From contig NZ_CP096040.1 of NCBI RefSeq assembly GCF_023935105.1, positions 2,170,001-2,234,000 of the forward strand: a DNA stretch of 64,000 bases. The letters are read 5' to 3'. Positions 7,891 through 24,695 of the stretch are shown here, one piece after another. How positions within the stretch are numbered: position 1 is the first letter of the stretch; every line of letters starts with the position of its first letter. The notes beneath the pieces are model-generated. The model searched no databases, had not been told where the DNA came from, and saw only the letters and a program-made list of their open reading frames with translations. The translations under genes and the position numbers were made by a program. The DNA comes from Caulobacter segnis. Its GTDB lineage: Bacteria > Pseudomonadota > Alphaproteobacteria > Caulobacterales > Caulobacteraceae.

Positions 7891-7960
7891 ATTCCATTCG
7901 TATTGTAAAATGGAAAATCTGTTCGTATCGTGTGGGCAAATGAAACGGCCCCGGAAAAAC
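7891..7960. promoter_or_regulatory. Divergent phytase/phosphatase promoter with IolR-type dyad (site A)
   Basis: TTCCATT (7892-7898) and AATGGAA (7909-7915) are perfect 7-bp inverted arms, 10 bp apart. TGTTCGTATC follows at 7920-7929 and may be the -10 region of the phosphatase gene. About 30 of 38 bases match the region before the TonB receptor at 21953-21990. The dyad lies between the phytase and phosphatase genes and could control both. Confidence 0.6.
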
Positions 7961-9323: not shown

Positions 9324-10310
9324 TCAGAGCTTCACCACCTGCCCGGTCTTCGCCGACTGGCCGGCCGCCTCGGCCAAGGCCAGGGCCTCGACGCCGTCGA
9401 CATAGCCGACCGAGGGCAGGGCCTCGCCGCGGATGATTTCGGCGAAGTGCGCCATCTCGCGGCGGTAGGCCTCGGCGTAGCGGTCGAGGAAGAAGTTCTG
9501 GAAGGCGTCGCTGGACGCGCCGGCCTCGCCCCAGACGCTGACCGTGCTCTCCATGACGTTGTCGGCGCGGACCAGGCCCTTGGCGCCGAAAGCCTCGATG
9601 CGCTGGTCGTAGCCATAGCCGCTGCGGCGGCTGTTGCTGATCATGCAGATCTTGCCCGAGGCGGTGCGCAGGATGATCTTGGCGGTGTCGACGTCACCGG
9701 CCTCGCCGATCGCCGGATCGACCAGGCAGCTGGCGGCCGCGTAGACCTCGCTCACCGGCTCGTCCAGCAACCAGCGGGCCATGTCGAAGTCGTGGATGGC
9801 CATGTCCTTGAACAGGCCGCCCGAGACCTTGACGTAGCTGACCGGCGGCGGGGCCGGATCGTGGCTGGTGATGTGCACCGTCTCCAGCGCGCCGACGACG
9901 CCAGCCGAGAGCCTGGCTTTGAGCCCCTGGAAGTTCGGGTCGAAGCGGCGGTTGAAGCCCAGGAACAGCTTCACGCCCTTGCCGCCCAGTTCGCCCTGCG
10001 CCGAGCGGGCTCGAGCCAGGTCCTGGTCGATCGGTTTCTCGCAGAACACCGCCTTGCCGGCCGCGATGGCCTTCAGGGAATAGTCCAGGTGGGTGTCGGT
10101 CGAACTGGCGACGATGACCCCGGCCACCGACGGATCGTTCAGCGCCGTGTCGAGGTCGACGACATTCGCGCCGGTCTCGGCGGCCAAGCCGTCGGCGGCC
10201 GCGGCCACCGGATCGACCACATATTTCAGGCGCAGGCCCGGCTGGCCGGCGACGTTCTTGGCGTGGATGCGGCCGATGCGGCCGGCGCCCAAAATGGCGA
10301 TGTCGTGCAT
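9324..10310 (-). CDS. iolG: myo-Inositol 2-dehydrogenase
   Basis: NAD-dependent oxidation of myo-inositol to 2-keto-myo-inositol, first step of the Iol pathway. The 328-residue protein has an N-terminal Rossmann fold (AILGAGRIGRIHAKNV), the EKP catalytic lysine motif in VFCEKPID, and the GFO/IDH/MocA C-terminal domain with GGLFKDMAIHDFDMARW. ATG at 10310 follows an AGGG ribosome site. It is transcribed divergently from iolR across a region with TTCC/GGAA repeats, so control by IolR is likely. The family includes scyllo-inositol and other sugar dehydrogenases; the iol context decides the name. Confidence 0.9.
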   Translation of the reverse strand: MHDIAILGAGRIGRIHAKNVAGQPGLRLKYVVDPVAAAADGLAAETGANVVDLDTALNDPSVAGVIVASSTDTHLDYSLKAIAAGKAVFCEKPIDQDLARARSAQGELGGKGVKLFLGFNRRFDPNFQGLKARLSAGVVGALETVHITSHDPAPPPVSYVKVSGGLFKDMAIHDFDMARWLLDEPVSEVYAAASCLVDPAIGEAGDVDTAKIILRTASGKICMISNSRRSGYGYDQRIEAFGAKGLVRADNVMESTVSVWGEAGASSDAFQNFFLDRYAEAYRREMAHFAEIIRGEALPSVGYVDGVEALALAEAAGQSAKTGQVVKL

Positions 10311-10372: not shown

Positions 10373-10405
10373 GGAATAAAAATTCCTTCCATATGAAAAG
10401 TGGAA
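10373..10405. promoter_or_regulatory. iolG/iolR intergenic operator (site B)
   Basis: The stretch contains GGAA-N6-TTCC at 10373-10386 and TTCC at 10387-10390 facing GGAA at 10402-10405. Read on the minus strand it gives TTCC-N15-GGAA, then TTTTT-ATTCCATAC, which lines up with the GAATTTTTGTTCGTATC of the receptor promoter at 21974-21990. It is the probable iolG promoter/operator and may also act on iolR. Confidence 0.6.
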
Positions 10406-10485
10406 TGGGTGCGCGAGCCCGCGAGCGTTTGTGTTCGGCCGCGGAACGGATATTCTATTTCTGAAGCGATCATATCGGGGCGGAA

Positions 10486-11361
10486 ATGACCGAAGAGACC
10501 ACGGCGACCACGGCGCCGGCCACGGCCGAGGAGCTCAGGGCGGCGATCCTCGAGCGCTACGATTCGCTGAGCAAGCGGCTGCAGCAGATCGCCCGCTACG
10601 TGCTGGACGAGCCCAACGAGCTGGCGCTGGAGACTCTGGCGGTGATCTCCGAGCGGTGCGGCGTGCAGCCCTCGGCCATCGTCCGCTTCGCCAAGACCTT
10701 CGGTTATCCTGGCGCCAGCCAGATGCAGCGCCTGTTCCGCGACGGCCTGCTGTCGGGCCATGCCGGCTTGGGCTACGGCGAGCGCGTGCGCCATTTCAAC
10801 GAGGCGGTGGCGCGCAAGTCCGACGGCGGGGCCGATGTCCTGAGCGAGTTCGTCGAGGGCAACACCCTGGCCCTGCAGAACCTGACCCAGACGGTCAGCG
10901 AAGCCGACATGAAGGACGCCGTCGCCCTGATCGACCGGGCCGAGACGGTATATGTCGTAGGCTTTCGCCGCTCGTTCCCGGTGGCCTCGTACCTGGCCTA
11001 TTCGCTGCAGCAGGTGAACAAGCGCACTCTGTTCATCGACGGTGTGGCCGGCCTGACCAAGCAGCAGGTCCAGACCATCGGCCCGCGCGACCTGCTGATC
11101 GCCGTCAGCTACCACCCGTACGCCGAAGAGACGGTGCAGGCCGTCGACATGGCCACCCAGCGCGGCGCGCGGATTCTTTCCATCAGCGATAGTCTGGTCA
11201 GCCCGATCGCCAAGCCGGCCGAACTGGTGCTGCACGTGCGCGAATCGGAGGTGCGGACCTTCCGCTCGCTGGCCGCCTCGATCTGTCTGGCCCAGGCCCT
11301 GGTGATCGGCTTCGCCTTCGAGTCCAGCAAGGAAAAGAAGAAGCTGAAGAAGGGCGGTTGA
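10486..11361 (+). CDS. iolR: RpiR-family transcriptional regulator of inositol genes
   Basis: Protein of 291 residues with an N-terminal RpiR-type helix-turn-helix (about 20-95: SKRLQQIARYVLDEPNELA, then VISERCGVQPSAIVRFAKTFGYPG) and a C-terminal SIS sugar-phosphate-binding domain (about 130-265, VYVVGFRRSFPVASYLAYSL). RpiR proteins in iol clusters commonly repress in the absence of an inositol-pathway intermediate; here its position between iolG and iolC and the nearby dyads support that role. The tail ends in a lysine cluster (ESSKEKKKLKKGG). The ATG at 10486 follows GGGGCGGAA. Confidence 0.88.
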   Translation: MTEETTATTAPATAEELRAAILERYDSLSKRLQQIARYVLDEPNELALETLAVISERCGVQPSAIVRFAKTFGYPGASQMQRLFRDGLLSGHAGLGYGERVRHFNEAVARKSDGGADVLSEFVEGNTLALQNLTQTVSEADMKDAVALIDRAETVYVVGFRRSFPVASYLAYSLQQVNKRTLFIDGVAGLTKQQVQTIGPRDLLIAVSYHPYAEETVQAVDMATQRGARILSISDSLVSPIAKPAELVLHVRESEVRTFRSLAASICLAQALVIGFAFESSKEKKKLKKGG

Positions 11362-11381: not shown

Positions 11382-11440
11382 TTCCATTCCAAATCAAAAA
11401 TGAAATGGATGTTGCAAGTGTTCTATCTTTGGAATATGCG
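11382..11440 (+). promoter_or_regulatory. iolC promoter/operator (site C)
   Basis: TCCATT (11383-11388) and AATGGA (11404-11409) are perfect inverted arms, giving TTCC-N16-GAAA spacing like the other sites. Downstream TTGCAAGTGTTCTATC (11412-11427) resembles the TTG...TGTTCGTATC of sites A and D and may contain the core promoter of the iolCDEB operon. Confidence 0.55.
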
Positions 11441-11488: not shown

Positions 11489-13420
11489 ATGGCGCAGGAC
11501 GCAAAGACCCTTGATCTGATCGCCATCGGCCGGTCCTCCGTCGACCTCTACGGACAACAGGTGGGCGGGCGGCTGGAGGACATGTCCTCCTTCGCCAAGT
11601 ATCTGGGCGGCAGCCCGACCAACACCGCCGCCGGCGGGGCGCGCCTGGGGCTGAAGACGGGCCTCCTGACCCGCGTCGGCGCCGACCACATGGGCCGCTT
11701 CATCCGCGAGCAGCTTGAGCGCGAGGGCGTCAATGTCGCCGGCGTGCTGTCGGATCCCGACCGCCTGACGGCCCTGGTGATCCTGGGCATCCGCGACCGG
11801 GTGAACTTTCCGCTGATCTTCTACCGCGAGAACTGCGCCGACATGGCGTTGCAGCCGTCGGACGTCGACGAGACCTGGTTCGCCCAGGCTGGGGCGGTGC
11901 TGATCAACGGCACCCACCTGTCGCAGCCGAACGTCTACGAGACCAGCCTGAAGGCCGCCCGCGCGGTGAAGGCTGCCGGAGGGCGCGTGGCCTTCGACAT
12001 CGACTATCGCCCCGTGCTGTGGGGCCTGACCGGCAAGGACGCCGGCGAGAACCGCTTCGTCGAGAACCAGGACGTCACCGCCAAGCTGCAGGAGGTCGTG
12101 GCCTTGTGCGACCTGATCGTCGGCACCGAGGAAGAGATCCACATCTTGGGCGGCACGACCGACACCATCGCGGCCTTGCGGGCGATCCGCAAAGGCGCGC
12201 CGGACGCGCTGCTGGTCTGCAAGCGCGGGCCGGACGGCTGCGTCGCTTTCCCGGACGCCATTCCCGACACCTTGGACGAAGGCGTCAGCGCCAGGGGTTT
12301 CAAGGTCGAGGTGTTCAACGTGCTGGGGGCGGGCGACGCCTTCATGGCCGGCTTTCTGCGCGGCTGGCTGCGTAACGAGACCGTCGAGACCTGCTGCGAG
12401 TGGGGCAACGCCTGCGGGGCCATCGTCGTCTCGCGCCATGGCTGCACGCCGGCCATGCCGACCTGGGTCGAGCTGGAGGCCTTCCTGTCGGAGCGGGAAC
12501 GTCCGTTCCGCCTGCGCGAGGACGTCGAGCTGGAACACATCCACTGGGCCAGCACCCGCGACCGCGTCTATGACGAGCTGACGGTCCTGGCCGTCGATCA
12601 CCGCAGCCAGTTCCTGGACCTGATCGCCGAGACCGGCGGCGACCCCGAGCGGATCCCGCACTTCAAGACCCTGGCTCTGCGCGCTGTGCGGCAGGTGGCC
12701 GGTCGCGACGAAGCCCGGTTCGGTATGCTGCTGGACGGCCGTTTCGGCTTGGACGCCCTGGCCCAGGCCGCCGACCACGACTACTGGATCGCCCGCCCGA
12801 TCGAGCTGCCCAAGTCGCGGCCGCTGGAGTTCGAGAGCTCTGCCGACGTCGCCACCGAGCTGACGGAGTGGCCGGCGGGGCAGGTGGTCAAGTGCCTGTG
12901 CTTCTATCACCCCGACGACGAGATCGCGTTGCGCGAGCGGCAGGAACGCCAGCTGCTGCGCCTGTTCGACGCCTGTCGGAAGACCCGCCATGAGCTGCTG
13001 CTGGAACTGATCCTGCCGGCCGGCATGGACAGCGACAGCCGCACCGTGGCCCGCGCCATTCGTCGCCTCTATTCCCTGGGCATCCGCCCGGACTGGTGGA
13101 AGCTGGAGCCGCTGCAGGACGCGGTGGCCTGGCGCGAGACCGAGATGGCCATCAACGAGAACGACCCGCTGTGCCGTGGCGTGGTGCTGTTGGGGCTGTC
13201 GGCGCCGGAGGCCGAGCTGCTGGCTTCGTTCGAGGTCGTCGCCCCGTTCCCGATCGTGAAGGGCTTCGCCGTCGGCCGTACCATCTTCTACGATGTCGCC
13301 CGCGATTGGCTGGCGGGTCGTATCGACGACGAGGCGGCGGTCGCCGCGCTCGCCTCCAAGTTCAAGGTGCTGGTCGACGCCTGGCGGCGTCTGCGCGGCG
13401 CTGCCGAGAAGGCCGCGTAA
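11489..13420 (+). CDS. iolC: Fused 5-dehydro-2-deoxygluconokinase / DUF2090 aldolase-type protein
   Basis: Protein of 643 residues. Residues about 5-325 are a PfkB sugar kinase (GRSSVDLYGQQ start, GGSPTNTAAGGARLG, and the catalytic GAGDAFMAGF around 279-288). Residues about 340-640 form a DUF2090 domain (VLAVDHRSQF, RFGMLLDGRFG, LELILPAGMD), related to class I aldolases and known as a fusion partner of IolC. No separate iolJ is seen, so the C-terminal half probably cleaves the phosphorylated product to DHAP and malonate semialdehyde. It heads a run with iolD one base downstream. Confidence 0.9.
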   Translation: MAQDAKTLDLIAIGRSSVDLYGQQVGGRLEDMSSFAKYLGGSPTNTAAGGARLGLKTGLLTRVGADHMGRFIREQLEREGVNVAGVLSDPDRLTALVILGIRDRVNFPLIFYRENCADMALQPSDVDETWFAQAGAVLINGTHLSQPNVYETSLKAARAVKAAGGRVAFDIDYRPVLWGLTGKDAGENRFVENQDVTAKLQEVVALCDLIVGTEEEIHILGGTTDTIAALRAIRKGAPDALLVCKRGPDGCVAFPDAIPDTLDEGVSARGFKVEVFNVLGAGDAFMAGFLRGWLRNETVETCCEWGNACGAIVVSRHGCTPAMPTWVELEAFLSERERPFRLREDVELEHIHWASTRDRVYDELTVLAVDHRSQFLDLIAETGGDPERIPHFKTLALRAVRQVAGRDEARFGMLLDGRFGLDALAQAADHDYWIARPIELPKSRPLEFESSADVATELTEWPAGQVVKCLCFYHPDDEIALRERQERQLLRLFDACRKTRHELLLELILPAGMDSDSRTVARAIRRLYSLGIRPDWWKLEPLQDAVAWRETEMAINENDPLCRGVVLLGLSAPEAELLASFEVVAPFPIVKGFAVGRTIFYDVARDWLAGRIDDEAAVAALASKFKVLVDAWRRLRGAAEKAA

Positions 13421-13421
13421 C

Positions 13422-15266
13422 ATGGCGACTGTCCGTCTCACCGCCGCCCAGGCGACCGTCCGCTGGCTCTCGCAGCAATATGTCGAAACCGGGAAGGGGG
13501 AGGTCCCGTACTTCGCCGGGGTCTGGGCGATCTTCGGCCACGGCAATGTCGCCGGCCTGGGCGAAGCCCTGCACGGCGTCCGTGACGTGCTGCCGACCTA
13601 TCGGGCGCACAACGAACAGGGCATGGCCCACGCGGCCATCGCCTTCGCCAAGCAGTCGCGCCGCGAGCGGGCCATGGTCTGCACCACCTCGATCGGCCCC
13701 GGCGCGACCAACATGGTCACCGCGGCCGCCCTGGCCCATGTGAACCGCTTGCCGGTGCTGTTTCTGCCCGGCGACGTCTATGCCAGCCGCCGTCCCGATC
13801 CCGTTCTCCAGCAGATCGAGGACTTCGGCGACGGCACGATCAGCGCCAACGACGCCTTCAAGCCGGTCTCGCGCTATTTCGACCGCATCGTGCGTCCCGA
13901 GCAGATCCTGGACGCCCTGCCGCGGGCCCTGGCGACCATGCTGGACCCGGCCACCTGCGGCCCCGCGACCCTGGCCTTCTGCCAGGACGTCCAGGCCGAG
14001 GCGTTCGACTATCCGGAAGCCTTCTTCGCCAAGAAGGTCTGGCGCATCCGCGCGCCGCGTCCCGATCCGCGCGAACTGGCGGATCTCGTCTCGCTGATCA
14101 AGGCGGCCAAGCGGCCGCTGGTCGTGGCTGGGGGCGGGGTGCTGTACGCCCGCGCCGAGGCCGCCCTGGCCAACCTCGTCTCCCGCGCCGGCCTGCCGGT
14201 CGCCGAGACGCAAGGAGGGAAGGGGAGCCTGGCCTGGGATCACCCGTTGAACCTGGGCGCCGTCGGTGTCACCGGCACGACCGCCTCGGTGGCGGCGTCG
14301 GAAGAGGCCGACCTGATCATCGGCGTTGGCACCCGCTTGCAGGACTTCACCACCGGCTCGCGCGCCCTGTTCGGCGCCGACGGCCGCAAGCTGGTGCAGA
14401 TCAACGTCGCCCCGCACGACGCCCACAAGCACGGCGCGGCCAGCGTCGTCGGAGACGCCCTGGCGGTGGTCGAGGCCCTTTCCGAGGCGCTGGACGGCTG
14501 GCAGGCTCCGAAGGCCTGGACCGACAAGGCCACAGGCGGCGTTTCCGGCTGGAACGCCATCTTCGACGCGGCGACCAAGCCCGACAATCGCGAGCTGCCG
14601 ACCGACGCCCAGGTGCTGGGCGCGGTATGGCGAGCCTCGTCCGACGACAGCGTGGTGGTCTGCGCCGCCGGCGGCCTGCCGGGCGAGTTGCACAAGCTGT
14701 GGCGCACGCGTCGGCCCGGCGGCTACCACGTCGAGTACGGCTTCTCGTGCATGGGCTACGAGATCGCCGGCGCCGTCGGCGTGAAGATGGCCGCGCCGGA
14801 CCGCGAGGTCCACGTGATGGTCGGCGACGGCAGCTATCTGATGATGAACTCCGAGCTGGCCACCTCGGTGATGCTGGGGACCAAGCTGATCGTCACCGTC
14901 CTCGACAACCGAGGCTTTGGCTGCATCAACCGCCTGCAGGCGGCGACGGGCGGGGCGGCGTTCAACAACCTGCTGGCCGACGCGCGCCACGAAACCCTGC
15001 CGGACATCGACTTCGCCGCCCACGCCGCCAGCCTGGGCGCCCGCTCGGAAAAGGTGGCCAGCCTGGCCGAGCTGGAGGCGGCGCTGCAACGCGCCAAGGC
15101 CAGCGACTGCAGCTACGTCGTGGTCATCGACACCGACCCGATGCCGGCCACCGAAGGCGGCGCCTGGTGGGATGTGACCGTGCCGGAAGTCTCGGTGCGC
15201 CCGACCGTCAACGCCGCGCGCGCCGACTACGAAACCAAGATCAAGCAACAGCGTACGGGGGACTAA
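13422..15266 (+). CDS. iolD: 3D-(3,5/4)-trihydroxycyclohexane-1,2-dione hydrolase
   Basis: Thiamine-diphosphate enzyme that opens the cyclohexanedione ring. The 614-residue protein from the ATG at 13422 has the three ThDP-family domains: N-terminal PYR domain with the glutamate in HNEQGMAHAAIAFAK, central domain around 210-350, and C-terminal PP domain with VMVGDGSYLMMNSEL (GDG...N motif). The start lies one base after the iolC stop. The open frame runs on upstream inside iolC, but MATVRLTAAQATVRWL is the conserved beginning. Cytoplasmic, third Iol step. Confidence 0.93.
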   Translation: MATVRLTAAQATVRWLSQQYVETGKGEVPYFAGVWAIFGHGNVAGLGEALHGVRDVLPTYRAHNEQGMAHAAIAFAKQSRRERAMVCTTSIGPGATNMVTAAALAHVNRLPVLFLPGDVYASRRPDPVLQQIEDFGDGTISANDAFKPVSRYFDRIVRPEQILDALPRALATMLDPATCGPATLAFCQDVQAEAFDYPEAFFAKKVWRIRAPRPDPRELADLVSLIKAAKRPLVVAGGGVLYARAEAALANLVSRAGLPVAETQGGKGSLAWDHPLNLGAVGVTGTTASVAASEEADLIIGVGTRLQDFTTGSRALFGADGRKLVQINVAPHDAHKHGAASVVGDALAVVEALSEALDGWQAPKAWTDKATGGVSGWNAIFDAATKPDNRELPTDAQVLGAVWRASSDDSVVVCAAGGLPGELHKLWRTRRPGGYHVEYGFSCMGYEIAGAVGVKMAAPDREVHVMVGDGSYLMMNSELATSVMLGTKLIVTVLDNRGFGCINRLQAATGGAAFNNLLADARHETLPDIDFAAHAASLGARSEKVASLAELEAALQRAKASDCSYVVVIDTDPMPATEGGAWWDVTVPEVSVRPTVNAARADYETKIKQQRTGD

Positions 15267-15269
15267 CCC

Positions 15270-16169
15270 ATGACCATCCGTTTCGGCGTGAGCCCCATCG
15301 CCTGGATCAATGACGACATGCCCGAGCTGGGCGGCGACACCCCGCTGGAAAGCGTGCTGGCCGACTGCCAGGCCATCGGCTTCTCCGGCGTCGAGCTGGG
15401 CGGCGTCTTCCCGCGCGACCCGGCGGTGCTGAAGCCGCTGCTGGACCGCTACGGCCTCTCGCTGGTCGGCGGCTGGTACAGCGGCAATCTCTTGGTCCAC
15501 TCGGCCGACGATGAGATCGCCGCCCTGCAACCGCATCTGGCCTTGCTGAAGGCGATGGGCTGTTCGGTGTTCATCCACGCCGAGACCAGCAACGCCATCC
15601 ACGGTGACCGCTCCAAGACGCTGTCGGCGACCCCGCGCCTCGACGCCGAGGGCTGGAAGGAATTCGGCGCGCGCCTGACCAAGGTGGCCGACTACATCGC
15701 CAGCCAGGGCCTGAAGTTCGCCTATCACCATCACCTGGGCACCGTGGTCGAGCGGCCTGAGGACCTGGAGGCCTTTCTGGCCAACACGGGACCCTCGGTC
15801 GGCCTGACCGTCGACACCGGCCATGCGGCCCTGGGCGGCCTGGACCCGGTGCAGGTGATCCGCAGCTATCCGCACCGCGTCGCCCACGTGCACTGCAAGG
15901 ACATCCGCAGCGAGGTCTTTCACAAGGTGGTCTCGCGCGGCGGCGGCAGCTTCCTGGAAGGCGTGCTGGCCGGCATGTTCACCGTGCCCGGCGACGGTTA
16001 TCTGGACTACGCGGCGGTCATGCAGGCGCTGGCCGAGATCAATTACTCGGGCTGGATCATCGTCGAGGCCGAACAGGACCCCGCCATCGCCAATCCCCGC
16101 CAGTACGGCGAGATGGGCCTGGCGACCCTGAAGAAGGAAGCCGCCGCAGCGGGCTTGAGGGCCGCGTGA
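15270..16169 (+). CDS. iolE: 2-Keto-myo-inositol dehydratase
   Basis: Second Iol step: dehydrates 2-keto-myo-inositol to the dione used by IolD. The 299-residue protein is an AP-endonuclease-2/xylose-isomerase-like TIM barrel (GFSGVELGGVFPRD, FAYHHHLGTVVE, LTVDTGHAALGG, HVHCKDI, IIVEAEQDPA); the acidic and histidine residues in these motifs would hold the metal. It begins three bases after iolD with GGGGG nearby, and its TGA overlaps the iolB start. Confidence 0.93.
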   Translation: MTIRFGVSPIAWINDDMPELGGDTPLESVLADCQAIGFSGVELGGVFPRDPAVLKPLLDRYGLSLVGGWYSGNLLVHSADDEIAALQPHLALLKAMGCSVFIHAETSNAIHGDRSKTLSATPRLDAEGWKEFGARLTKVADYIASQGLKFAYHHHLGTVVERPEDLEAFLANTGPSVGLTVDTGHAALGGLDPVQVIRSYPHRVAHVHCKDIRSEVFHKVVSRGGGSFLEGVLAGMFTVPGDGYLDYAAVMQALAEINYSGWIIVEAEQDPAIANPRQYGEMGLATLKKEAAAAGLRAA

Positions 16170-16975
16170 TGAGCAAGCTGCTGGTTCGCTCGCACGCGCC
16201 CGACGCGTCCGGTTCTGTCCTGGAAGTCACGCCCGCCTCGGCAGGCTGGACCCATGTCGGCTTCCAGGTCGTCAAGTTGGCGGCCGGCGACACCTTTGAC
16301 GGCTCCGAGCCCAACCGCGAGACTTGCGTCGTCGTGATGAGCGGGACCGCCGAGGTCTCGGCCGAGGGCGTTTCGTTCGGCAAGGTCGGCGGCCGCGCCA
16401 GCGTGTTCGAGGATCGGGCCCCTGGCGCGGTCTATGTCCCCGCCGCGACGCCCTATGTCGTCACCGCCGTCACAGACGTCGAGTTGGCTCTCTGCACAGC
16501 CCCGGGCAAGCCAGGCGGCGAGGCCCGCCTCATCGCCGAGGGCGACATGCCGCGCGAGACGCGAGGCCAGGGGACGAACACGCGCCTCGTCCGCAACATC
16601 CTGCCCGAGACGGCCCCGGCCGACGGTCTGCTGGTGGTCGAGGTGATCACGCCCGGCGGCCACTGGTCCAGCTATCCACCGCACAAGCACGACACCGCCG
16701 CGGAGGGCGAGGAGACGGCGCTGGAAGAGACCTACTATCACCGCCTGAACCCGCCGCAGGGCTTCGCCTTCCAGCGCGTCTACACCGACGACCGCAGCCT
16801 GGACGAGACCGTCTGCGTGCAGGACGGCGACGTGGTCATGGTCCCGCGCGGCTACCACCCGGTCGGGGCCCCGCACGGTTACGACCTCTACTACCTCAAC
16901 GTCATGGCCGGACCGCACCGGAAGTGGATCTTCCGCAACGACCCGGCCCACGACTGGATCATGCGCAAGGCCTGA
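16169..16975 (+). CDS. iolB: 5-Deoxy-glucuronate isomerase
   Basis: Isomerises 5-deoxyglucuronate to 2-deoxy-5-keto-gluconate. The 268-residue protein has the two cupin halves of the KduI/IolB family; the C-terminal half has the metal-binding PPHKHD and the downstream ETYYHRLNPPQGFAFQ and MVPRGYHPVGAPHG stretches. I use the ATG at 16169, which overlaps the iolE stop (TGATG); a GTG one codon earlier is possible. It is followed after 59 bp by the transporter gene. Confidence 0.93.
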   Translation: MSKLLVRSHAPDASGSVLEVTPASAGWTHVGFQVVKLAAGDTFDGSEPNRETCVVVMSGTAEVSAEGVSFGKVGGRASVFEDRAPGAVYVPAATPYVVTAVTDVELALCTAPGKPGGEARLIAEGDMPRETRGQGTNTRLVRNILPETAPADGLLVVEVITPGGHWSSYPPHKHDTAAEGEETALEETYYHRLNPPQGFAFQRVYTDDRSLDETVCVQDGDVVMVPRGYHPVGAPHGYDLYYLNVMAGPHRKWIFRNDPAHDWIMRKA

Positions 16976-17034: not shown

Positions 17035-18384
17035 ATGCTGACCTTCTTCGCGCGCGGGCCCGACGCGCCGCCGCTGAGCGATCCGGCGACGATCGACACG
17101 CTGTACCGGCGCCATCGCTTCCGGATCATGCTGGCCATCACCCTGGGCTACGGCATGTCCTATACCTGCCGCCTGGCGCTGGGCATGGTGAAGAAGCCGC
17201 TGATCGATGCGGGCATCTTCACGCCCACCGAGCTGGGCCTGATCGGCTCGGCCCTGTTCTACGCCTACGCCTTCGGCAAGCTGACCAACGGCGTCCTGGC
17301 CGACCACGCCAACATGAAGCGGTTCTTCGCCTTCAGCGTGCTGATCTCGGGCCTGGCCAATGTCGGCATGGGGTTCTCGACCACCGTGGCCCTGTCGGCG
17401 GCGCTGTGGGGGATCAACGGCTGGTTCCAGAGCTTCGGCGCGCCGGCCGGGGTGGTGTCGATGAGCCAGTGGTTCAGCAACCGCGAGCGCGGCCGCTACT
17501 ACGGCGTCTGGAGCACCGCCCACTCGATCGGCGAGGGCCTGACCTTCGCCGCGGTCGGCGGCGTCGTCGCGGCGTTCGGCTGGCGCTACGGCTTCTGGGG
17601 ACCGGCGGCGATCGGCGTGCTGGTGGCCATCGCCGGCTACTTCCTGATCCAGGATCGCCCGCAGACCCTGGGCCTGCCCGCCGTCGCCGACTGGCGTAAC
17701 GACCACTGGCAGGGCGACAAGCCCCAATCGGGGCCGAAGCCGGAGCCCGCCAGCGTCTTTCGGACCCAGCTGCAGATCCTCAAGATCCCCGCCGTCTGGG
17801 CCTTGGCCCTGTCGTCGGCCCTGATCTACGTGACCCGCTACGCCATCAATAGCTGGGGTGTCCTCTATCTGCAGGAGGCGCGTGGCTACAGCCTGGCGGC
17901 GGCCGGCTCGATGCTGATGATCTCGACCCTGGCCGGCATCGTCGGCGCGATCAGCTTCGGGTTCGTGTCCGACAAGGTGTTCGGCGCGCGGCGTCCGCCC
18001 GCCAACCTGCTGTTCGGCTTGCTGGAACTGGCGGGTCTGGCCTTGATCCTCTACGGCCCCAACACCGCGCCGGTCATGATCATCGGCATGATCCTGTTCG
18101 GCCTGGGCATGACGGCCCTGGTCACCTCGCTGGGCGGGCTGTTCGCCACCGACATCTGTCCTAAGCGCGTGGCCGGCGCGGCCGTTGGCCTGATCGGGGT
18201 GTTCAGCTATCTGGGCGCGGCCATCCAGGAACATGTCAGCGGCGTGCTGATCGAGCGTGGCATGCGTGTCATCGACGGCGTGCGACACTACGACTTCGGG
18301 CCCGCCATGATCTTCTGGATGGGCGCGTCCGTCGCTTCCCTGACCCTGGCCGCCGGCCTGTGGCGCACCAAGCTGAGAGACTGA
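17035..18384 (+). CDS. OPA-type (GlpT/UhpT-like) organophosphate transporter
   Basis: Twelve-helix major-facilitator protein of 449 residues in the inner membrane. It looks like an organophosphate:phosphate antiporter and not like a sugar:proton importer. YAFGKLTNGVLADHAN (77-92) is the OPA signature. The two substrate arginines of GlpT appear conserved, R46 in SYTCRLALG and R268 in YVTRYAINSWGVLYLQE, and SDKVFGARR follows as in GlpT. Between iolB and an inositol monophosphatase gene, the likely cargo is inositol monophosphate from phytate breakdown; glycerol or sugar phosphates are alternatives. ATG at 17035 follows AGGGGGAAACGAAG. Confidence 0.85.
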   Translation: MLTFFARGPDAPPLSDPATIDTLYRRHRFRIMLAITLGYGMSYTCRLALGMVKKPLIDAGIFTPTELGLIGSALFYAYAFGKLTNGVLADHANMKRFFAFSVLISGLANVGMGFSTTVALSAALWGINGWFQSFGAPAGVVSMSQWFSNRERGRYYGVWSTAHSIGEGLTFAAVGGVVAAFGWRYGFWGPAAIGVLVAIAGYFLIQDRPQTLGLPAVADWRNDHWQGDKPQSGPKPEPASVFRTQLQILKIPAVWALALSSALIYVTRYAINSWGVLYLQEARGYSLAAAGSMLMISTLAGIVGAISFGFVSDKVFGARRPPANLLFGLLELAGLALILYGPNTAPVMIIGMILFGLGMTALVTSLGGLFATDICPKRVAGAAVGLIGVFSYLGAAIQEHVSGVLIERGMRVIDGVRHYDFGPAMIFWMGASVASLTLAAGLWRTKLRD

Positions 18385-18388
18385 TCCC

Positions 18389-19192
18389 GTGACCGAGCCT
18401 TCCCCGCTGCTGCAGACGATGATCCGCGCGGCGCGCGCCGCCGGCGACCGTCTCAAGCAGGACTTCGCCGAGATCGCCACCCTGGAGATCCAGCACAAGA
18501 ACGGTCCGGCCGACCCCTTCACCATCGCCGACGTGCGCGCCGAGCAGACGGTGAAGTCGATCCTGTCGGAGGCCTATCCAGACTACGGCTTCCTGGGCGA
18601 GGAGGGGGGACTGGTCGAGGGCGCGGACCCCGCCAACACCTGGATCTGCGACCCGCTGGACGGCACCGCCAACTTCCTGATCGGCCTGCCGATCTGGGCG
18701 GTGAACATCGGCCTGCAGTGCGACGGCGAGATCGTGGCCGGGGTGACCTACGTCCCCATGCAGGGCGAGCTGTTCCGGGCCGAGGCGGGCAAGGGCGCCT
18801 ATCTCAACGATGTCCGCATCCACGTGTCGGAGCGCCAGGGCCTGGAACAGGCCATCCTCAGCGTCGGCGTGCCGTTCATGGGCAAGCTGAGGCAGGAGCA
18901 GTTCCACGCCGAGATGCAGCGCCTGACTCCCAAGGTCGGCGGCGTGCGCCGTCTGGGCGCCGGGGCCGTGGACATGGCCTATGTCGCCTGCGGCCGTTTC
19001 GACGCCTATTGGGAGCAGTCGGTCAGCGCCTGGGACATGGCCGCCGGCGCGGTAATCGTGCGCGAGGCCGGCGGGGTGGTCACCGACACCCTGGGCCGCG
19101 ACCTCGACGTCCAGAACGGCACCGTCCTGGCGACCACGCCGCAACTTCTCGACACGTTGCTGCACGAACTGCGACCCGTAGACGCAATCTAG
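18389..19192 (+). CDS. Inositol-monophosphatase-family phosphatase
   Basis: Mg-dependent cytoplasmic phosphatase of 267 residues starting at GTG 18389, four bases after the transporter stop. Metal-site motifs are present: GEEGG (E71/E72), DPLDGTANF (D88, D91, with A in place of the more usual T), and SAWDMAAGAVIVREAGG. It closes the iolCDEB-transporter run and would convert imported inositol phosphate to myo-inositol for IolG. Family members also act on other substrates (histidinol phosphate, PAP), so the substrate comes from context. No clear terminator follows. Confidence 0.87.
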   Translation: MTEPSPLLQTMIRAARAAGDRLKQDFAEIATLEIQHKNGPADPFTIADVRAEQTVKSILSEAYPDYGFLGEEGGLVEGADPANTWICDPLDGTANFLIGLPIWAVNIGLQCDGEIVAGVTYVPMQGELFRAEAGKGAYLNDVRIHVSERQGLEQAILSVGVPFMGKLRQEQFHAEMQRLTPKVGGVRRLGAGAVDMAYVACGRFDAYWEQSVSAWDMAAGAVIVREAGGVVTDTLGRDLDVQNGTVLATTPQLLDTLLHELRPVDAI

Positions 19193-19572: not shown

Positions 19573-19905
19573 ATGATCCTTTCCCGATATCCTTTCCGGA
19601 CCCTCCTGATCGCCGCGGCGGTCGTCTCGGCGCTGGCGGCTGGCGGCGCGAGCGCCGACGATCACAAGAAGCAGAGCCACGAAGCCGCGCGCCAGGCCCT
19701 GCTGCGCAAGGAGGTCCTGCCGCTGACCCGGATCCTGGCCATCGCCGCCCAGCGCGCGCCCGGCGAGGTGATCGAGGTCGAGTTGGAGCAGGGCGACCAC
19801 GGTCGCCTGAAGTACGACCTGAAGATCCTGGCCAAGACCGGCCGTATCCGTGAACTGGAACTCGACGCCAAGACCGGCGCGACCCTGAAGCTCGAGGACG
19901 ACTGA
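19573..19905 (+). CDS. PepSY-type periplasmic protein
   Basis: A 110-residue exported protein with a signal peptide (MILSRYPFRTLLIAAAVVSALAAGGASA). The mature part fits the PepSY fold: helix EVLPLTRILAIAAQRAPGEVIEVELE followed by strands YDLKILAKTGRIRELELDAKTGATL. Such proteins often precede response regulator and kinase genes and may modulate the sensor in the periplasm. Its stop abuts the GTG of the next gene, so all three genes form one operon. Confidence 0.8.
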   Translation: MILSRYPFRTLLIAAAVVSALAAGGASADDHKKQSHEAARQALLRKEVLPLTRILAIAAQRAPGEVIEVELEQGDHGRLKYDLKILAKTGRIRELELDAKTGATLKLEDD

Positions 19906-20571
19906 GTGCGGGCCCTGGTCGTCGAGGACGATCCCGTCGTCGGTCCGGACCTGGCCAAGGCGCTGGCCGCCTCGGGCTTCGTCGTGGACTTGGCGCGCGA
20001 CGGCGAGGACGCCTCGTTCAAGGGCGGGGTCGAGGACTACGCCGTCGTCGTCCTGGACTTGGGGTTGCCGCGCCTGGACGGCCTGTCGGTACTGAGGCGC
20101 TGGCGCAAGGACGGCCGGGGCTTTCCGGTGCTGATCCTTTCGGCGCGCGGCGACTGGACCGAGAAGGTCGAGGGCATCGAGGCTGGCGCCGACGACTACC
20201 TGGCCAAGCCTTTCGAGATGGGCGAGCTGCTGGCCCGCGCCCGGGGGCTGGTCCGCAGGGCCGCCGGGCGCGTCTCGCCGGTGATCGAGGCTGGACGCCT
20301 GTCGCTCGACACCCGCCGGATGTCGGCGACCTTGGACGGCGCGCCGGTCAGGCTGTCGCCGCTGGAGTTCCGGCTGCTGGACTGCCTGGCGCACAATCCG
20401 GGCCGGGCCGTCTCGGCCGGCGAGCTGGCCGAGCAGCTGTACGGCGTCGCCGACACCGCCGACGCCAACGCCATCGAGGCCCTGGTCACCCGCCTGCGTC
20501 GCAAGGTCGGCTCGGACGTGATCGAGACCCGGCGGGGCTTTGGCTACCTGCTGGCCGGGCTCGCGGCGTGA
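19906..20571 (+). CDS. OmpR/PhoP-family response regulator
   Basis: Protein of 221 residues. Receiver domain about 1-115 with VVEDD, phospho-acceptor D51 in VVLDLGLPRLDG and the K of LAKPFEMGEL; winged-helix DNA-binding domain about 125-218 with LSPLEFRLLDCL, ALVTRLRRKVGSD and RGFGYLL. GTG start at 19906 directly follows the PepSY stop. Its last bases overlap the GTG of the kinase gene. The QseB/PhoP subgroup is suggested by length and by the PepSY partner. Confidence 0.92.
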   Translation: MRALVVEDDPVVGPDLAKALAASGFVVDLARDGEDASFKGGVEDYAVVVLDLGLPRLDGLSVLRRWRKDGRGFPVLILSARGDWTEKVEGIEAGADDYLAKPFEMGELLARARGLVRRAAGRVSPVIEAGRLSLDTRRMSATLDGAPVRLSPLEFRLLDCLAHNPGRAVSAGELAEQLYGVADTADANAIEALVTRLRRKVGSDVIETRRGFGYLLAGLAA

Positions 20572-21920
20572 AGGGGCGTTCGCTCAGAGGTCGGCTGATC
20601 GCCGGCGGCATGCTGGCGATCCTGGCGGCTTTGGCCGTGTCGTGGCTGGCCATGACCTGGCTGTTCGAGCGCCACATCGAGCGGCGCGAGATCGCCGACC
20701 TGACCCGCACCGGCCAGGCGCTGGCCGCCGCCGTGCGGCTGCAACCGAACGGCGCGCCTGTCGCCGATGTCGTGCTGAACGATCCACGCCTGCTGCACGC
20801 CATGGGCGGCCTTTATTGGCAGGTCTCGACGCCGGCGGGGACCAAGACCTCGCTGTCGCTGTGGGACCAGACCCTCAAGCCGCCGGCGACTGCGCCGTCC
20901 GACGCCTGGGCCTCTCGGATCGTCGCCGGGCCGTTCGATGACCGCATCCTGCTGGTCGAGCGCTCGGTGCGTCCTGACCGCAACGGGCCCGCCGTGCTGA
21001 TCCAGGTGGCCAGCGACGAGAAGGTCCTGCGCGCGGCCCGCCGCGAATTCGGCCGCGACCTGGCCCTGTTCCTGGCCGGGCTGTGGGTAGTGCTGTCGGC
21101 CGCCGCGGCCGTGCAGGTGGCCCTGGGCCTGGCGCCCCTGGCCCGCGTGCGCCAGGATCTGTCGCGTCTGCGCAAGAGCCCTTCGGCCCGGATGTCCGAC
21201 GATCATCCCCGCGAGATCGCCCCGCTGGCCGAGGCGATCAACGCCCTGGCCGAGGCGCGTGAAGGGGACCTCGCCCGCGCTCGCCGCCGGGCCGGCGACC
21301 TGGCCCACAGCCTGAAGACCCCGCTGTCGGCGCTCTCGGCTCAAAGCCGCCGGGCGCGCGAGGCCGGCGCCATCGAGGCCGCCGATGGTCTGGACGACGC
21401 CATCGCCGCCGTCGCCGCCGCTCTGGAGGCCGAGTTGGCTCGGGCTCGCGCCGCCGCCGCCCGCGAGGCCGCCTTCGCCAGCGAGACCGCGCCCCTGGCC
21501 GTGGCCGAGCGGCTGGTGGCGGTGCTGGAGCGCACGGCCGAGGGCGAGCGGCTGATGTTCGACGTCGAGATCCCGGCGGACCTGCGGGTTCCGGTTTCCG
21601 AGGACGCCGTCACCGAGATGCTGGGCGCCCTGATCGAGAACGCCGCCCGCTTCGCCCGCCGCCAAGTGCGTGTCTCGGGTCGTCCGTTGGCGGATGGACC
21701 GGTGCTGTTCGTCGAGGATGACGGGACCGGCATGGACGACGGGCGGACCGAGGCGGCCCTGGCGCGCGGCGCGCGTCTGGACGAGGCGGGGCCCGGCCAC
21801 GGCCTGGGCCTAGCGATCGTCCGCGACCTGGCCGAATCCTCCGGCGCGGTCCTGCGGATGGATCGCTCGGACCTGGGCGGATTGCGCGCGGCGATCGCCT
21901 GGAGATCGTCCGTGTCCTGA
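20568..21920 (+). CDS. Sensor histidine kinase (PhoQ/QseC-like)
   Basis: Membrane kinase of 450 residues. TM1 about 10-32, periplasmic region to about 165, TM2 about 166-190, HAMP-like region, then HisKA with H247 in DLAHSLKTPLSAL. The HATPase_c domain has the N box (LIENAARFARR), a DDGTGMD G1 box and GPGHGLGLAIV. The LAHSLKTPL form is typical of the PhoQ-type group. GTG start at 20568 overlaps the regulator stop (GTGA). Signal unknown; no target site was recognised. Confidence 0.9.
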   Translation: MKGRSLRGRLIAGGMLAILAALAVSWLAMTWLFERHIERREIADLTRTGQALAAAVRLQPNGAPVADVVLNDPRLLHAMGGLYWQVSTPAGTKTSLSLWDQTLKPPATAPSDAWASRIVAGPFDDRILLVERSVRPDRNGPAVLIQVASDEKVLRAARREFGRDLALFLAGLWVVLSAAAAVQVALGLAPLARVRQDLSRLRKSPSARMSDDHPREIAPLAEAINALAEAREGDLARARRRAGDLAHSLKTPLSALSAQSRRAREAGAIEAADGLDDAIAAVAAALEAELARARAAAAREAAFASETAPLAVAERLVAVLERTAEGERLMFDVEIPADLRVPVSEDAVTEMLGALIENAARFARRQVRVSGRPLADGPVLFVEDDGTGMDDGRTEAALARGARLDEAGPGHGLGLAIVRDLAESSGAVLRMDRSDLGGLRAAIAWRSSVS

Positions 21921-21952: not shown

Positions 21953-21990
21953 TTCCATTCTATTTGCAAAATAGAATTTTTGTTCGTATC
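21953..21990 (+). promoter_or_regulatory. TonB-receptor promoter with IolR-type dyad (site D)
   Basis: ATTCTATTT (21957-21965) and AAATAGAAT (21969-21977) are perfect 9-bp inverted arms around GCA. They overlap TTCC (21953-21956), giving TTCC-N16-AGAA, and are followed by TGTTCGTATC (21981-21990). The block matches site A at about 30 of 38 positions, the closest pair in the window, and links this receptor to the phytase/phosphatase promoters. Confidence 0.65.
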
Positions 21991-22055
21991 TTCTTCCCAG
22001 CGACCCAGAGCGCCAAATGGCGCCGTGGCGGAGTCGTCGACAGGGAAAGGGGAGG

Positions 22056-24632
22056 ATGATGAACGCATCCAAACGCGTGGGCGCGCTGCTGCTCACGTCA
22101 TGCATCGTGGCGCCCGGCATGGCCGCCGCTCAGTCCAATCAGGTTACGACGGTCGAGGAAGTCGTCGTCACCGGCCAGCGCGCCTCGGACCGGGACTCGC
22201 TGCTGAAGAAGCGCGACGCCGTCAGCGCCGTCGAAGTCGTCTCGGCCAACGACGTGGGCAAGCTGCCCGACCAGAACGTCGCCGAGTCCGTCCGCCGCCT
22301 GACCGGGGTGTCGGTGGCCACCGACAAGGGCGAAGGCCGCTATCTGATCATCCGCGGCATCGAGCCGAACCTGGCCAATGTCACGATCAACAATCAGACC
22401 GCCTCGGCCCCGGAGCCGGAGTCGCGCAACGTCAAGCTGGACGACATCCCCTCGGCCCTGATCGGCTCGGTGACGGTGGTCAAGTCGCTGACCGCCGACC
22501 TCGACGCCAACGCCATCGCCGGCCAGGTCGACATCAACACCCTGACCGCCTTCGACCGGAAGAAGAACATCCTCAGCGCCCGCTACGTGCGCGGCGTCTA
22601 CGAGAACAGCGACCGCAAGGCCAACGAGGGCGACCTGTCGGTCGGGGGCAAGTTCGGGCCCGAGAAGCAGTTCGGCCTGGTGTTGGCCGTGAACTATTCC
22701 AAGCGTCCGTCCTATTCCGAGGACATCCTGGCGACCAGCCGCCAGGTCGTGAACGGCGTCGACCTGCCGGCCGAGATGGACCAGCGGATCTACGATCCGG
22801 CCTGGCGCACGCGGAAGGGCGCGGTGGCCAATTTCGACTGGCGTCCGAACGACAGCGTCAAGCTCTACGCCCGGGTCATGTATTCGGAGTTCGGCGACAG
22901 CGAGAGCCGCAACCGCTTCCGGTTCTTCTTCCCGGGCTCGGCCAGCAGCTACACCAACCTGACGGCCGACGGCGGCGACATCAATGTCGGCGCGACCACG
23001 GCCCGCCGCCTGTTCCGCCAGCGCAGCGAGACTACCGACACCACCACCTTCTCGGTCGGCGGCGACGTCTACTGGGGCCCGGGCATGCTGACCGTCCAGG
23101 CCACCCACGCGGAGTCCAACAAGAAGGACCCGATCCGCGACGAGGTCGAGTTCCGGGCCTCGGCGTCGACGGGCCTGGGCGCCAGCTTCCGGCTGGGCGA
23201 CGAGATGCCCGACAGCTTCACGGTCAACGCCGCGGGTCTGAACCCGGCCAACTACCGGCTGAACAACTACAAGCGCGTCTCGCGCAAGGCCGGCGAGGAA
23301 CTGAACCAGCTCCGCGTCGACTACAAGCTGCCGATGTCCGACTGGGGCGAGGGCAGCTATCTGAAGTTCGGGGCCAAGTATCTGAAGCGCGATCGCTTCC
23401 AGGACCAGACCGGCCGCACCTTCACCGCCACCGGCGCGGCGGCGGCCCAGACCCTGGCCTCGTTCGTGGCCGACACCTTCCCGACCATCTCGGACGGCAA
23501 GTACAGCTTCGGCCCGACCATCAACTTCAAGGCCGCCCGCGACTATGTCGATGGCAACCAGAGCCTGTTCACGGTCAACGCCACCGACCAGATCTCGCAG
23601 TCGGTGACCTCGGATTACAAGGTCGTCGAGACGGTCACCGCCGCCTATGTGATGGCCAGCATCCAGCGAGGCGATCTGACCATCATCCCCGGCGTTCGCG
23701 CCGAGCGCACCGAGGGCGACACCAAGGCCATCGCCTTCACCTCGGCCACGACCCTGACCAGCGGCTACAACTCGTTCGGCGGGTACAACTATACGAACTA
23801 CTTCCCGAGCCTGAACCTGAAGTACCAGTTCAGCGCGAACCTCCTGGCGCGCGGGGCGATCACCACGGCCCTGGGCCGGCCGCCGTTCGTGGACCTGGCG
23901 CCAACGGTCACCGTCGACGTGGCCAGCAACACCGTCAGCATGGGCAATCCGAACCTGAAGGCCCAGAAGGCGACCAATTTCGACTTCTCGCTGGAATACT
24001 ATTTCCCCAGCGAAGGCGGCATCTCGATCGGTCTGTTCCACAAGGACATCGAGAACCCGATCTTCAACTCGACCTCGACCGGCCAGAACGGGACCTATGG
24101 CGGCGTCGCCCTGACCAACGCCATCGTCAACTCTTACGCCAACGGGACCAAGGCCAAGGTGACCGGCCTGGAGTTCAACATCCAGAAGCCGCTGACCTTC
24201 CTGCCGTCGCCGCTGGACGGCTTCGGGGTCAACTTCAACATGACCTTCACCGACGGCTCGCTGAAGGTCCCTGGGCGCACGGTGAAGACCCCGTTGATCG
24301 GCCAGGCCGACCGGATCGCCAGCGCCCAAGTCTATTACGAGAAGTACGGCTTCTCGGGGCGCGTGGCCTACACCTACCACTCGGCGTATCTGGACACCGA
24401 CGGCGGCCTGAACGTCAGCGACGCCACCGGCAAGTCGGACGGCTATTTCGGGGCGCTCAGCACCCTGGACGCCAAGGTCGCCTACAAGGTCACCAAGCAG
24501 TTCGAGATCTTCGCCGAAGCCAACAACCTCAACGACGCCTCGGACTATTACTACTTCAGGACCAGCAACCGCTTCCGCGAAGGCGAAAGCTACGGCCGCT
24601 CGTACCGCTTCGGCCTGTCCTACACCTACTGA
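22056..24632 (+). CDS. TonB-dependent outer-membrane receptor, IolR-type promoter
   Basis: Outer-membrane receptor of about 858 residues. Signal peptide MMNASKRVGALLLTSCIVAPGMAAAQ, then a TonB box-like VEEVVVTGQ, a plug domain (DVGKLPDQNVAESVRRLTGVSV, RGIEPNLANVTINN, SLTADLDANAIAGQVDINTL) and a 22-strand-type barrel ending in the aromatic YRFGLSYTY. GGGGAGG precedes two adjacent ATGs at 22056 and 22059, so either may be used. The substrate is unknown. The promoter dyad and the location next to the phytase/iol genes suggest an inositol phosphate, phytate chelate or inositol-containing glycan. Confidence 0.9.
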   Translation: MMNASKRVGALLLTSCIVAPGMAAAQSNQVTTVEEVVVTGQRASDRDSLLKKRDAVSAVEVVSANDVGKLPDQNVAESVRRLTGVSVATDKGEGRYLIIRGIEPNLANVTINNQTASAPEPESRNVKLDDIPSALIGSVTVVKSLTADLDANAIAGQVDINTLTAFDRKKNILSARYVRGVYENSDRKANEGDLSVGGKFGPEKQFGLVLAVNYSKRPSYSEDILATSRQVVNGVDLPAEMDQRIYDPAWRTRKGAVANFDWRPNDSVKLYARVMYSEFGDSESRNRFRFFFPGSASSYTNLTADGGDINVGATTARRLFRQRSETTDTTTFSVGGDVYWGPGMLTVQATHAESNKKDPIRDEVEFRASASTGLGASFRLGDEMPDSFTVNAAGLNPANYRLNNYKRVSRKAGEELNQLRVDYKLPMSDWGEGSYLKFGAKYLKRDRFQDQTGRTFTATGAAAAQTLASFVADTFPTISDGKYSFGPTINFKAARDYVDGNQSLFTVNATDQISQSVTSDYKVVETVTAAYVMASIQRGDLTIIPGVRAERTEGDTKAIAFTSATTLTSGYNSFGGYNYTNYFPSLNLKYQFSANLLARGAITTALGRPPFVDLAPTVTVDVASNTVSMGNPNLKAQKATNFDFSLEYYFPSEGGISIGLFHKDIENPIFNSTSTGQNGTYGGVALTNAIVNSYANGTKAKVTGLEFNIQKPLTFLPSPLDGFGVNFNMTFTDGSLKVPGRTVKTPLIGQADRIASAQVYYEKYGFSGRVAYTYHSAYLDTDGGLNVSDATGKSDGYFGALSTLDAKVAYKVTKQFEIFAEANNLNDASDYYYFRTSNRFREGESYGRSYRFGLSYTY

Positions 24633-24643
24633 TCCTCACCTTT

Positions 24644-24678
24644 GGCCGGCCGCTGGCGAACGCCGTGGCCGGCCTTTT
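24644..24678 (+). terminator. Terminator or attenuator between receptor and triosephosphate isomerase genes
   Basis: GGCCGGCC (24644-24651) and GGCCGGCC (24667-24674), with inner GGCG/CGCC pairs, form a strong hairpin followed by TTTT. It ends only 8 bp before the GGAGG of the next gene, so the isomerase is probably expressed by read-through or from a promoter within the receptor gene. Confidence 0.65.
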
Positions 24679-24695
24679 CATGTCCGGAGGACCGT

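Follow-up and report, generated by a model that had tools for sequence, protein, structure and literature searches.

A predicted inositol-monophosphate:phosphate antiporter of the OPA family in an inositol-catabolism locus of Caulobacter segnis

The inositol module of Caulobacter crescentus comprises IolR, IolC-D-E-B-A, IdhA and IbpA-IatA-IatP, the last being the sole inositol importer, and carries the motif GGAA-N6-TTCC (PMC2597717, in the part of the report accessible to us). The same part raises, as a suggestion only, that an HlyB-family ABC protein might move derivatised inositols. Phytate is degraded by isolates of Sphingomonas and Caulobacter (PMC5017799, accessible part), and the accessible part of a survey of iol clusters omits transporters from the core set and never mentions inositol monophosphatase (PMC9430895). 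Here, we describe a locus in a 64,000-nt stretch of Caulobacter segnis contig NZ_CP096040.1 (the window), in which iolB is followed by genes for a carrier of the organophosphate antiporter (OPA) family and a phosphatase of the inositol-monophosphatase (IMPase) family. Comparative evidence indicates that the carrier, encoded at 17035-18384, is probably an inositol-monophosphate:phosphate antiporter. No bacterial inositol-phosphate carrier was named among the matches listed in searches of the open-access literature, which does not contradict the statement of the initial annotation that no such OPA carrier is established in bacteria.

The carrier and the adjoining phosphatase

Coordinates are positions in the window; L codes denote loci of the OPA set and G codes denote genomes of the order. 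The two genes were as follows:

17035..18384, + strand: OPA-type MFS carrier, predicted inositol-monophosphate:phosphate antiporter (ATG start, 449 aa)
18389..19192, + strand: IMPase-family phosphatase, predicted inositol-monophosphatase (GTG start, 267 aa)

They are separated by 4 nt and lie on the same strand, downstream of iolC-DUF2090, iolD, iolE and iolB. The carrier matched MFS_1 in Pfam, and its closest solved structures by sequence were GlpT (1pw4, E = 2.6e-49) and SLC37A4. An AlphaFold2 model based on 46 sequences (mean pLDDT 91.7, pTM 0.89) had 1pw4 as its top match in a fold search of the PDB (TM 0.77/0.79), and R46 and R268 aligned with R45 and R269 of GlpT, respectively. The initial annotation had described an OPA protein with these two arginines after iolB, followed by an IMPase homologue, and had suggested comparing a structure model with GlpT. 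The Pfam matches, the alignment with 1pw4, the iolB score and the fold match confirm that description.

The arginines were nevertheless uninformative as to cargo. Both were present in all 31 rows of the clade described below; among the 46 other OPA rows, which include E. coli GlpT, UhpT and UhpC, R46 occurred in 45 and R268 in 46. Because nearly every compared OPA protein has both residues, the sensor UhpC included, the pair was dropped as a cargo diagnostic: it is present and aligned as annotated, but it is not distinctive. We extended the comparison to the positions that we take to form the phosphate (Pi) site of GlpT. Every one of the 31 clade rows has Y39, Y43, R46, Y78, W159, H163, Y265, R268 and Y392, and 30 of them have K82; most of these positions are just as conserved in the 46 other rows, with H163 in 38 and W159 in 41 of them, and in the UhpC of E. 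coli. As judged from the alignment, the conserved Pi-site residues are a mark of the OPA family and not of the cargo.

The carrier scored below the NCBIfam cut-offs of glpT (227 bits, cut-off 633), UhpT (153 bits, cut-off 497), PgtP (164 bits, cut-off 750) and TIGR00881 (245 bits, cut-off 408). Its best score, 270 bits, was with the UhpC model, whose cut-off is 564. Other matches to the carrier in its own genome (E ≤ 1e-5) were 23-27% identical, and its nearest named relative was from Caulobacter sp. Root343 (89% identity), a strain that also carries the module (L018). The adjoining phosphatase matched Inositol_P (PF00459) with 221 bits (cut-off 27) and contains the motifs DPLDGTAN, WDMA and GEE; its score with the inositol-1-monophosphatase equivalog NF008027 was 189 bits, below the cut-off of 332. 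The genome also encodes an IbpA homologue (L115), which matched 4irx (E = 7e-159), a structure that we take to be C. crescentus IbpA. This homologue probably serves free inositol. Thus, free inositol probably already has its own carrier.

Clade, gene neighbourhoods and the kinase variant

Relatives of the carrier were drawn from 152 stretches of the genome_contigs collection identified by exact matches to query peptides; these gave 106 relatives, of which 80 were kept. Because of how it was drawn, the sample favours close relatives. Dropped before the tree and the counts were L011-L017 (same genes as L098-L104), eight of the ten Proteus loci, and L037, L046, L049, L050, L088 and L091. OPA paralogues of the same genome fell below the score limit and lie outside both. 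The tree contained 79 rows, consisting of the relatives, the order's own loci and E. coli outgroups; the repeat E. coli UhpC and GlpT rows (L105, L106) were excluded from the counts. The tree was from a quick search and has long branches, L039 among them, and its finer order was not relied on. Neighbours were identified by profile searches of stop-to-stop frames in the flanks, whose median length was 18.6 kb for the clade and 14.1 kb for the others. For the window row, flags were assigned manually on the basis of the window itself.

The window carrier fell inside a 31-row clade (SH-aLRT 100, stem 0.52). Phytase or histidine acid phosphatase (HAP), iol, IMPase or PfkB genes occurred in the examined flank of 25 of the 31 clade rows versus 7 of the 46 others; as the clade rows are related by descent, these and the following row counts are not independent. 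Phytase or HAP was found in 14 clade rows and in none of the others, the phytase counts being lower bounds for L098, L099, L101 and L103, in which the phytase lies outside the examined stretch or at its edge. Inositol genes were found in 23 clade rows (17 with iolB-E, 6 with iolG-like genes only) versus 2 others, IMPase in 14 versus 4, a PfkB gene of the TM0415 type in 11 versus 2, and a TonB receptor in 15 versus 2. IMPase was the next gene after OPA in 11 of the 14 IMPase-bearing clade rows, L103 included; elsewhere, it was 539 nt downstream (L039), 230 nt upstream (L028) or 4.5 kb away on the other strand (L082). The source organisms of the relatives include Caulobacter, Sphingomonas, Pleomorphomonas and Kangiellaceae, as well as metagenome-assembled genomes of Steroidobacteraceae, Betaproteobacteria, Acidobacteria, Thermoanaerobaculales and KSB1.

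We also screened 200 genomes of the order, using an OPA threshold of E ≤ 1e-30 and reading the iol operons over approximately 20 kb (G000 being the window). OPA was present in 8 genomes, a PF02333 protein in 121, and iolB above its cut-off in 11. In five of the 11 iol operons (G000, G061, G047, G097, G132), OPA and then IMPase come after iolB, with iolA between iolB and OPA in G047, and each of the five genomes has a two-domain phytase at a distance of 9-13 kb from OPA. The other six (G196, G146, G116, G136, G052, G032) had neither OPA nor IMPase within the approximately 20 kb, and iolA follows iolB. Both states occur within the genus codes g1 and g2, which argues that OPA and IMPase were gained or lost jointly. 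Two further draws of 385 and 398 genomes contained 2 and 4 OPA-positive genomes, respectively, counting the window genome and G047. The three new ones, whose species may overlap with the 106-relative sample, all had fitting loci: OPA-IMPase-PhoD-like-TonB receptor-HAP plus iolG in G373, an iol operon with iolA-OPA-IMPase-PhoD-like in G603, and an iol operon with iolA-OPA-PhoD-like in G794, where IMPase lies 2.8 kb further on the opposite strand.

In 11 of the 31 clade rows, several of them relatives from other phyla, a PfkB-family gene starts 11-27 nt after OPA, in the place of the IMPase gene. Sedimentisphaerales have two more OPA-PfkB pairs, which fall outside the clade; L090, one of the two, also has iolB, iolC, iolD, iolE and iolG. 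A TM0415-type PfkB and an IMPase never occurred together in the examined flank of any row, inside or outside the clade. For the two kinases searched, those of L035 and L090, the nearest solved structures were of TM0415 (E = 6e-43 to 5e-53). According to the accessible part of PMC5931981, TM0415 phosphorylates inositol with pyrophosphate (PPi) and not ATP, giving inositol monophosphate; its PPi signature is K171, F221, R229, R232 and M266, and its poor Km for inositol (12 mM) led the authors to leave the true substrate open. Among the 13 OPA-linked PfkBs (L021, L022, L026, L027, L029-L031, L033, L035, L036, L038, L089, L090), K171, F221, R229 and R232, the last two in the RXGRGD motif, were kept in every case, as were the inositol-site residues D11, Q141 and R145. 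The window IolC, itself a PfkB relative, has GAGD in place of GRGD. Residues N78/S89/L116 are L/L/S in 11 of the 13. These are the changes described for homolog 49, whose products are inositol monophosphates other than Ins(1)P and whose true acceptor the authors suspect to be a different compound (PMC5931981, accessible part).

Two unrelated enzymes occupy one slot: the IMPase would, by its family, hydrolyse inositol monophosphate, and TM0415, a relative of the kinase, interconverts it with inositol. This is the strongest pointer to the cargo of the carrier. We infer that the OPA-linked kinase would run backwards, converting inositol phosphate and Pi to inositol and PPi. Such a reversal should be energetically possible at high Pi with PPi removed. 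The kinase might instead run forwards or use a different acceptor. The pattern suggests that hydrolysis by IMPase and PPi-forming kinase reversal would be two exchangeable ways of freeing inositol.

Several observations concern other neighbours or more distant carriers. A PhoD-like protein (weak match, 57 bits versus a cut-off of 1000) lies beside IMPase/OPA or a few kb off in L098, L099, L101, L103, L125-L127, L021, L022 and L026. The Tat-like start of the L098 protein suggests an exported phosphatase of the same pathway. Four Pasteurellaceae loci (L084, L085, L086, L093) contain IMPase-OPA pairs with carriers 36-37% identical to that of the window, and no iol matches were found in the examined DNA. 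In Paraglaciecola, an OPA gene outside the clade (L062) comes after genes for a TonB receptor and a GDPD phosphodiesterase, a neighbourhood that suggests a glycerophosphodiester system. A plasmid search for OPA yielded 8 records of <60% identity, with no inositol context among the matches listed.

The surrounding locus and shared promoter motifs

The gene set around the carrier looks like a phytate-eating locus. The other features were as follows:

5773..7797, - strand: two-domain beta-propeller phytase (BPP), signal-like N terminus (674 aa from GTG at 7797, start inferred; PF02333, two stretches, 428 bits)
7892..7915, no strand: palindrome TTCCATT-N10-AATGGAA between the divergent phytase and acid-phosphatase genes (0 mismatches)
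7985..9232, + strand: HAP, AppA-like, signal-like N terminus (PF00328)
9324..10310, - strand: iolG, inositol 2-dehydrogenase (TIGR04380, 439 bits, cut-off 355)
10373..10410, no strand: iolG/rpiR intergenic sites, GGAA-N6-TTCC at 10373-10386 and a weak palindrome copy at 10387-10410 (3 mismatches)
10486..11361, + strand: RpiR/SIS regulator, IolR-like (PF01380, PF01418)
11382..11410, no strand: palindrome before iolC at 11382-11405 (1 mismatch) and an overlapping second match at 11387-11410 (3 mismatches)
11489..13420, + strand: iolC-DUF2090 fusion (NF047869, 759 bits, cut-off 600; PF00294, PF09863)
13422..15266, + strand: iolD (start inferred; named from its translation and same-place homologues in relatives)
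15270..16169, + strand: iolE (TIGR04379, 386 bits, cut-off 290)
16166..16975, + strand: iolB (TIGR04378, 349 bits, cut-off 205)
19573..19905, + strand: PepSY-domain protein (PF03413; start inferred)
19906..21920, + strand: response-regulator-like (19906-20571) and sensor-kinase-like (20568-21920) genes, named from their translations
21953..21976, no strand: palindrome before the TonB receptor gene (1 mismatch)
22017..24632, + strand: TonB-dependent receptor, predicted outer-membrane uptake of phytate or its products (TIGR01782, 569 bits, cut-off 310; PF00593, PF07715)

The signal-like starts of the phytase and HAP were judged by reading the translations. The phytase domains are unequal, the first scoring 111 bits and the second 320 bits with the PF02333 profile, and a profile search of the 5.69-Mb genome found no further PF02333 gene. 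The top NCBIfam models for HAP were AppA and glucose-1-phosphatase/inositol phosphatase, with both scores below cut-off. It is uncertain whether the two-component pair is linked to the locus. Homologues of the PepSY, regulator and sensor-kinase genes adjoin the locus in L018, L082 and L126 and also the OPA-free iol operon L107. After the TonB receptor gene, a frame at 24642-25418 resembles triosephosphate isomerase, judging by its motif; it may have a role in handling dihydroxyacetone-phosphate from inositol catabolism. The likely iolA, a methylmalonate-semialdehyde dehydrogenase (MMSDH) gene (674 bits), lies further downstream, at 46505-47938, approximately 27 kb from the IMPase gene; in relatives, an iolA comes after iolB.

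Two motifs occur in the promoters of the locus. GGAA-N6-TTCC had four matches in the window versus 0.52 expected. Of these, only the one at 10373, in the iolG/rpiR gap, is in a promoter of the locus; the others are at 12496 within iolC, at 23993 within the TonB receptor gene and at 28801. TTCCATT-N10-AATGGAA had five matches in the 64 kb versus 0.28 expected, a number reached in 0 of 100 shuffles, a statistic that overstates the surprise because the motif was first spotted by eye in these promoters. Four intergenic regions contain them: one match each lies in the phytase/HAP gap, in the iolG/rpiR gap and ahead of the TonB receptor gene, and two overlapping ones lie in the rpiR/iolC gap. We scanned 24 loci of relatives, allowing up to 3 substitutions and a spacer of 9-10, without computing a chance level for these matches. 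Similar palindromes occurred before OPA in L018, L019, L020, L070 and L099, before the TonB receptor gene in L018, L019, L020 and L070, and between BPP and OPA in L021, L022 and L027. Some matches in relatives fall inside genes, and five of the 24 loci (L082, L098, L100, L104, L108) contained no similar palindrome.

Predicted pathway, alternative cargoes and relation to known systems

In the predicted pathway, the TonB-dependent receptor would bring phytate across the outer membrane, and the exported phytase and acid phosphatase would remove its phosphates in the periplasm until inositol monophosphate is left. The OPA carrier would swap inositol monophosphate for cytoplasmic phosphate, the IMPase would free inositol, giving back the phosphate spent, and IolG, E, D, B and C catabolise inositol. 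In relatives with a TM0415-type kinase at the place of the IMPase, kinase reversal would free inositol together with PPi. The initial annotation had proposed that inositol monophosphate is imported and then dephosphorylated in the cytoplasm. On the comparative evidence, this is the best-supported reading and a prediction; the reasoning from the arginines fails. The further claim that the last phosphate is saved for the cell does not follow from Pi antiport. An OPA carrier normally exports a phosphate anion in counterflow and, because IMPase would return Pi inside, the cycle would be phosphate-neutral. It would mainly save carbon and ATP, carbon being delivered without ATP. For the cell to gain phosphate on balance, either self-exchange would have to be asymmetric or a different anion would have to leave, possibilities discussed for GlpT, UhpT and PgtP; with UhpT and PgtP, the transported substrates can sustain growth as the only source of P (PMC10715179, accessible part). 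Some phosphate saving through non-symmetric exchange might thus still occur.

Some observations weigh against this assignment. Taken singly, the binding-site residues in the alignment of OPA rows name no inositol phosphate. IMPase-family enzymes are broad, and the genome has four more members. Among the OPA-linked kinases, M266 is kept in 8 of 13 and is I, V or L in the other five. The examined flanks of six of the 31 clade rows (L024, L032, L034, L100, L102, L104) contained no phytase, iol, IMPase or PfkB gene, L034 having a TonB receptor alone, and L037, 57% identical and probably a clade member, had no linked gene within its 5.95-kb contig. Nor does phytase track OPA: PF02333 proteins were found in 5 of 8 OPA-positive and 116 of 192 OPA-negative genomes, and G053, G117 and G182 have OPA with neither a PF02333 protein nor an iolB match. 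Finally, G116 has phytase and iol genes and no OPA. Phytate use thus does not require the carrier.

Other cargoes or functions were weighed against the same data. It is unlikely that the carrier takes up a related phosphorylated inositol, such as inositol bisphosphate, glycerophosphoinositol or a phosphate of another inositol isomer, in place of myo-inositol monophosphate. The PhoD-like proteins beside OPA in several relatives (57 bits versus a cut-off of 1000) make diesters possible inputs, and L062, outside the clade, is beside GDPD; however, family membership places the linked IMPases, and assay data place TM0415 (PMC5931981, accessible part), at the level of the monophosphate. It is quite improbable that an ordinary OPA carrier for glycerol-3-phosphate, hexose-6-phosphate or phosphoglycerate lies in the iol operon by chance. 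While R46, R268 and the Pi site are generic and copies without linked genes exist, the linkage is repeated in several phyla, occurs jointly with IMPase and coincides with a clade of its own, and the scores are below the GlpT, UhpT and PgtP cut-offs. A Proteus OPA that is 41-42% identical to the window carrier, and that we presume from its gene order to be PgtP, led us to consider PgtP identity; the Proteus protein falls outside the clade.

A UhpC-like sensor of inositol phosphate, in place of a carrier, would fit the top NCBIfam score and the two-component pair downstream of OPA. Yet that score is far below its cut-off, a homologous pair also lies beside the OPA-free iol operon of G116 (L107), and both regulator and kinase matches were in the flank of only 10 of 31 clade rows, making a sensor very improbable. 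Least credible is an importer of free inositol with an OPA fold. The position of the gene inside the iol operon would suit such an importer, but this reading ranks low given the IbpA homologue encoded elsewhere and the intact Pi site; moreover, IMPase or the PPi-type kinase was found in the examined flank of 25 of 31 clade rows. With these alternatives weighed, we assign the carrier to the OPA family and predict a new cargo for it, inositol monophosphate, both substrate and direction being inferred.

A broader and more doubtful proposal is that these genes represent a new phytate-carbon uptake module. In such a module, an OPA carrier for inositol monophosphate would have two exchangeable partners: IMPase, with which the ester bond is given up, or a TM0415-type inositol-phosphate:phosphate phosphotransferase, with which the bond is kept as pyrophosphate. 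If true, the two-partner module would give the TM0415 group, a pyrophosphate-dependent ribokinase subgroup, a physiological role and a direction. For the defined clade, the neighbour rule (OPA with IMPase, or OPA with an RXGRGD kinase) makes the carrier question directly testable, and the clade would sharpen annotations of "MFS transporter".

The window carrier resembles GlpT, UhpT and PgtP in its fold and in its Pi-site arginines and tyrosines, and phosphate exchange is assumed for it as well. It differs in its separate clade, its scores below the equivalog cut-offs and its context of inositol and phytate genes; T298 is present in 30 of 31 clade rows, whereas GlpT, with E299, and UhpT have E there. 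The window IMPase shares its Pfam family and catalytic motifs with SuhB/inositol-1-monophosphatase but is an extra copy adjoining OPA, below the equivalog cut-offs, and one of five family members in the genome. Unlike TM0415, the OPA-linked PfkBs of relatives are paired with a carrier and would act in the reverse direction, while the window has IMPase instead. With the C. crescentus inositol module (PMC2597717, accessible part), the locus shares gene order, the RpiR regulator, the GGAA-N6-TTCC site and an IbpA homologue; it differs in having OPA-IMPase after iolB and phytase, HAP and TonB receptor genes in the flanks. The 3' neighbour of iolB is iolA in the six OPA-free relatives, iolA and then OPA in other OPA-positive relatives, and OPA-IMPase in the window.

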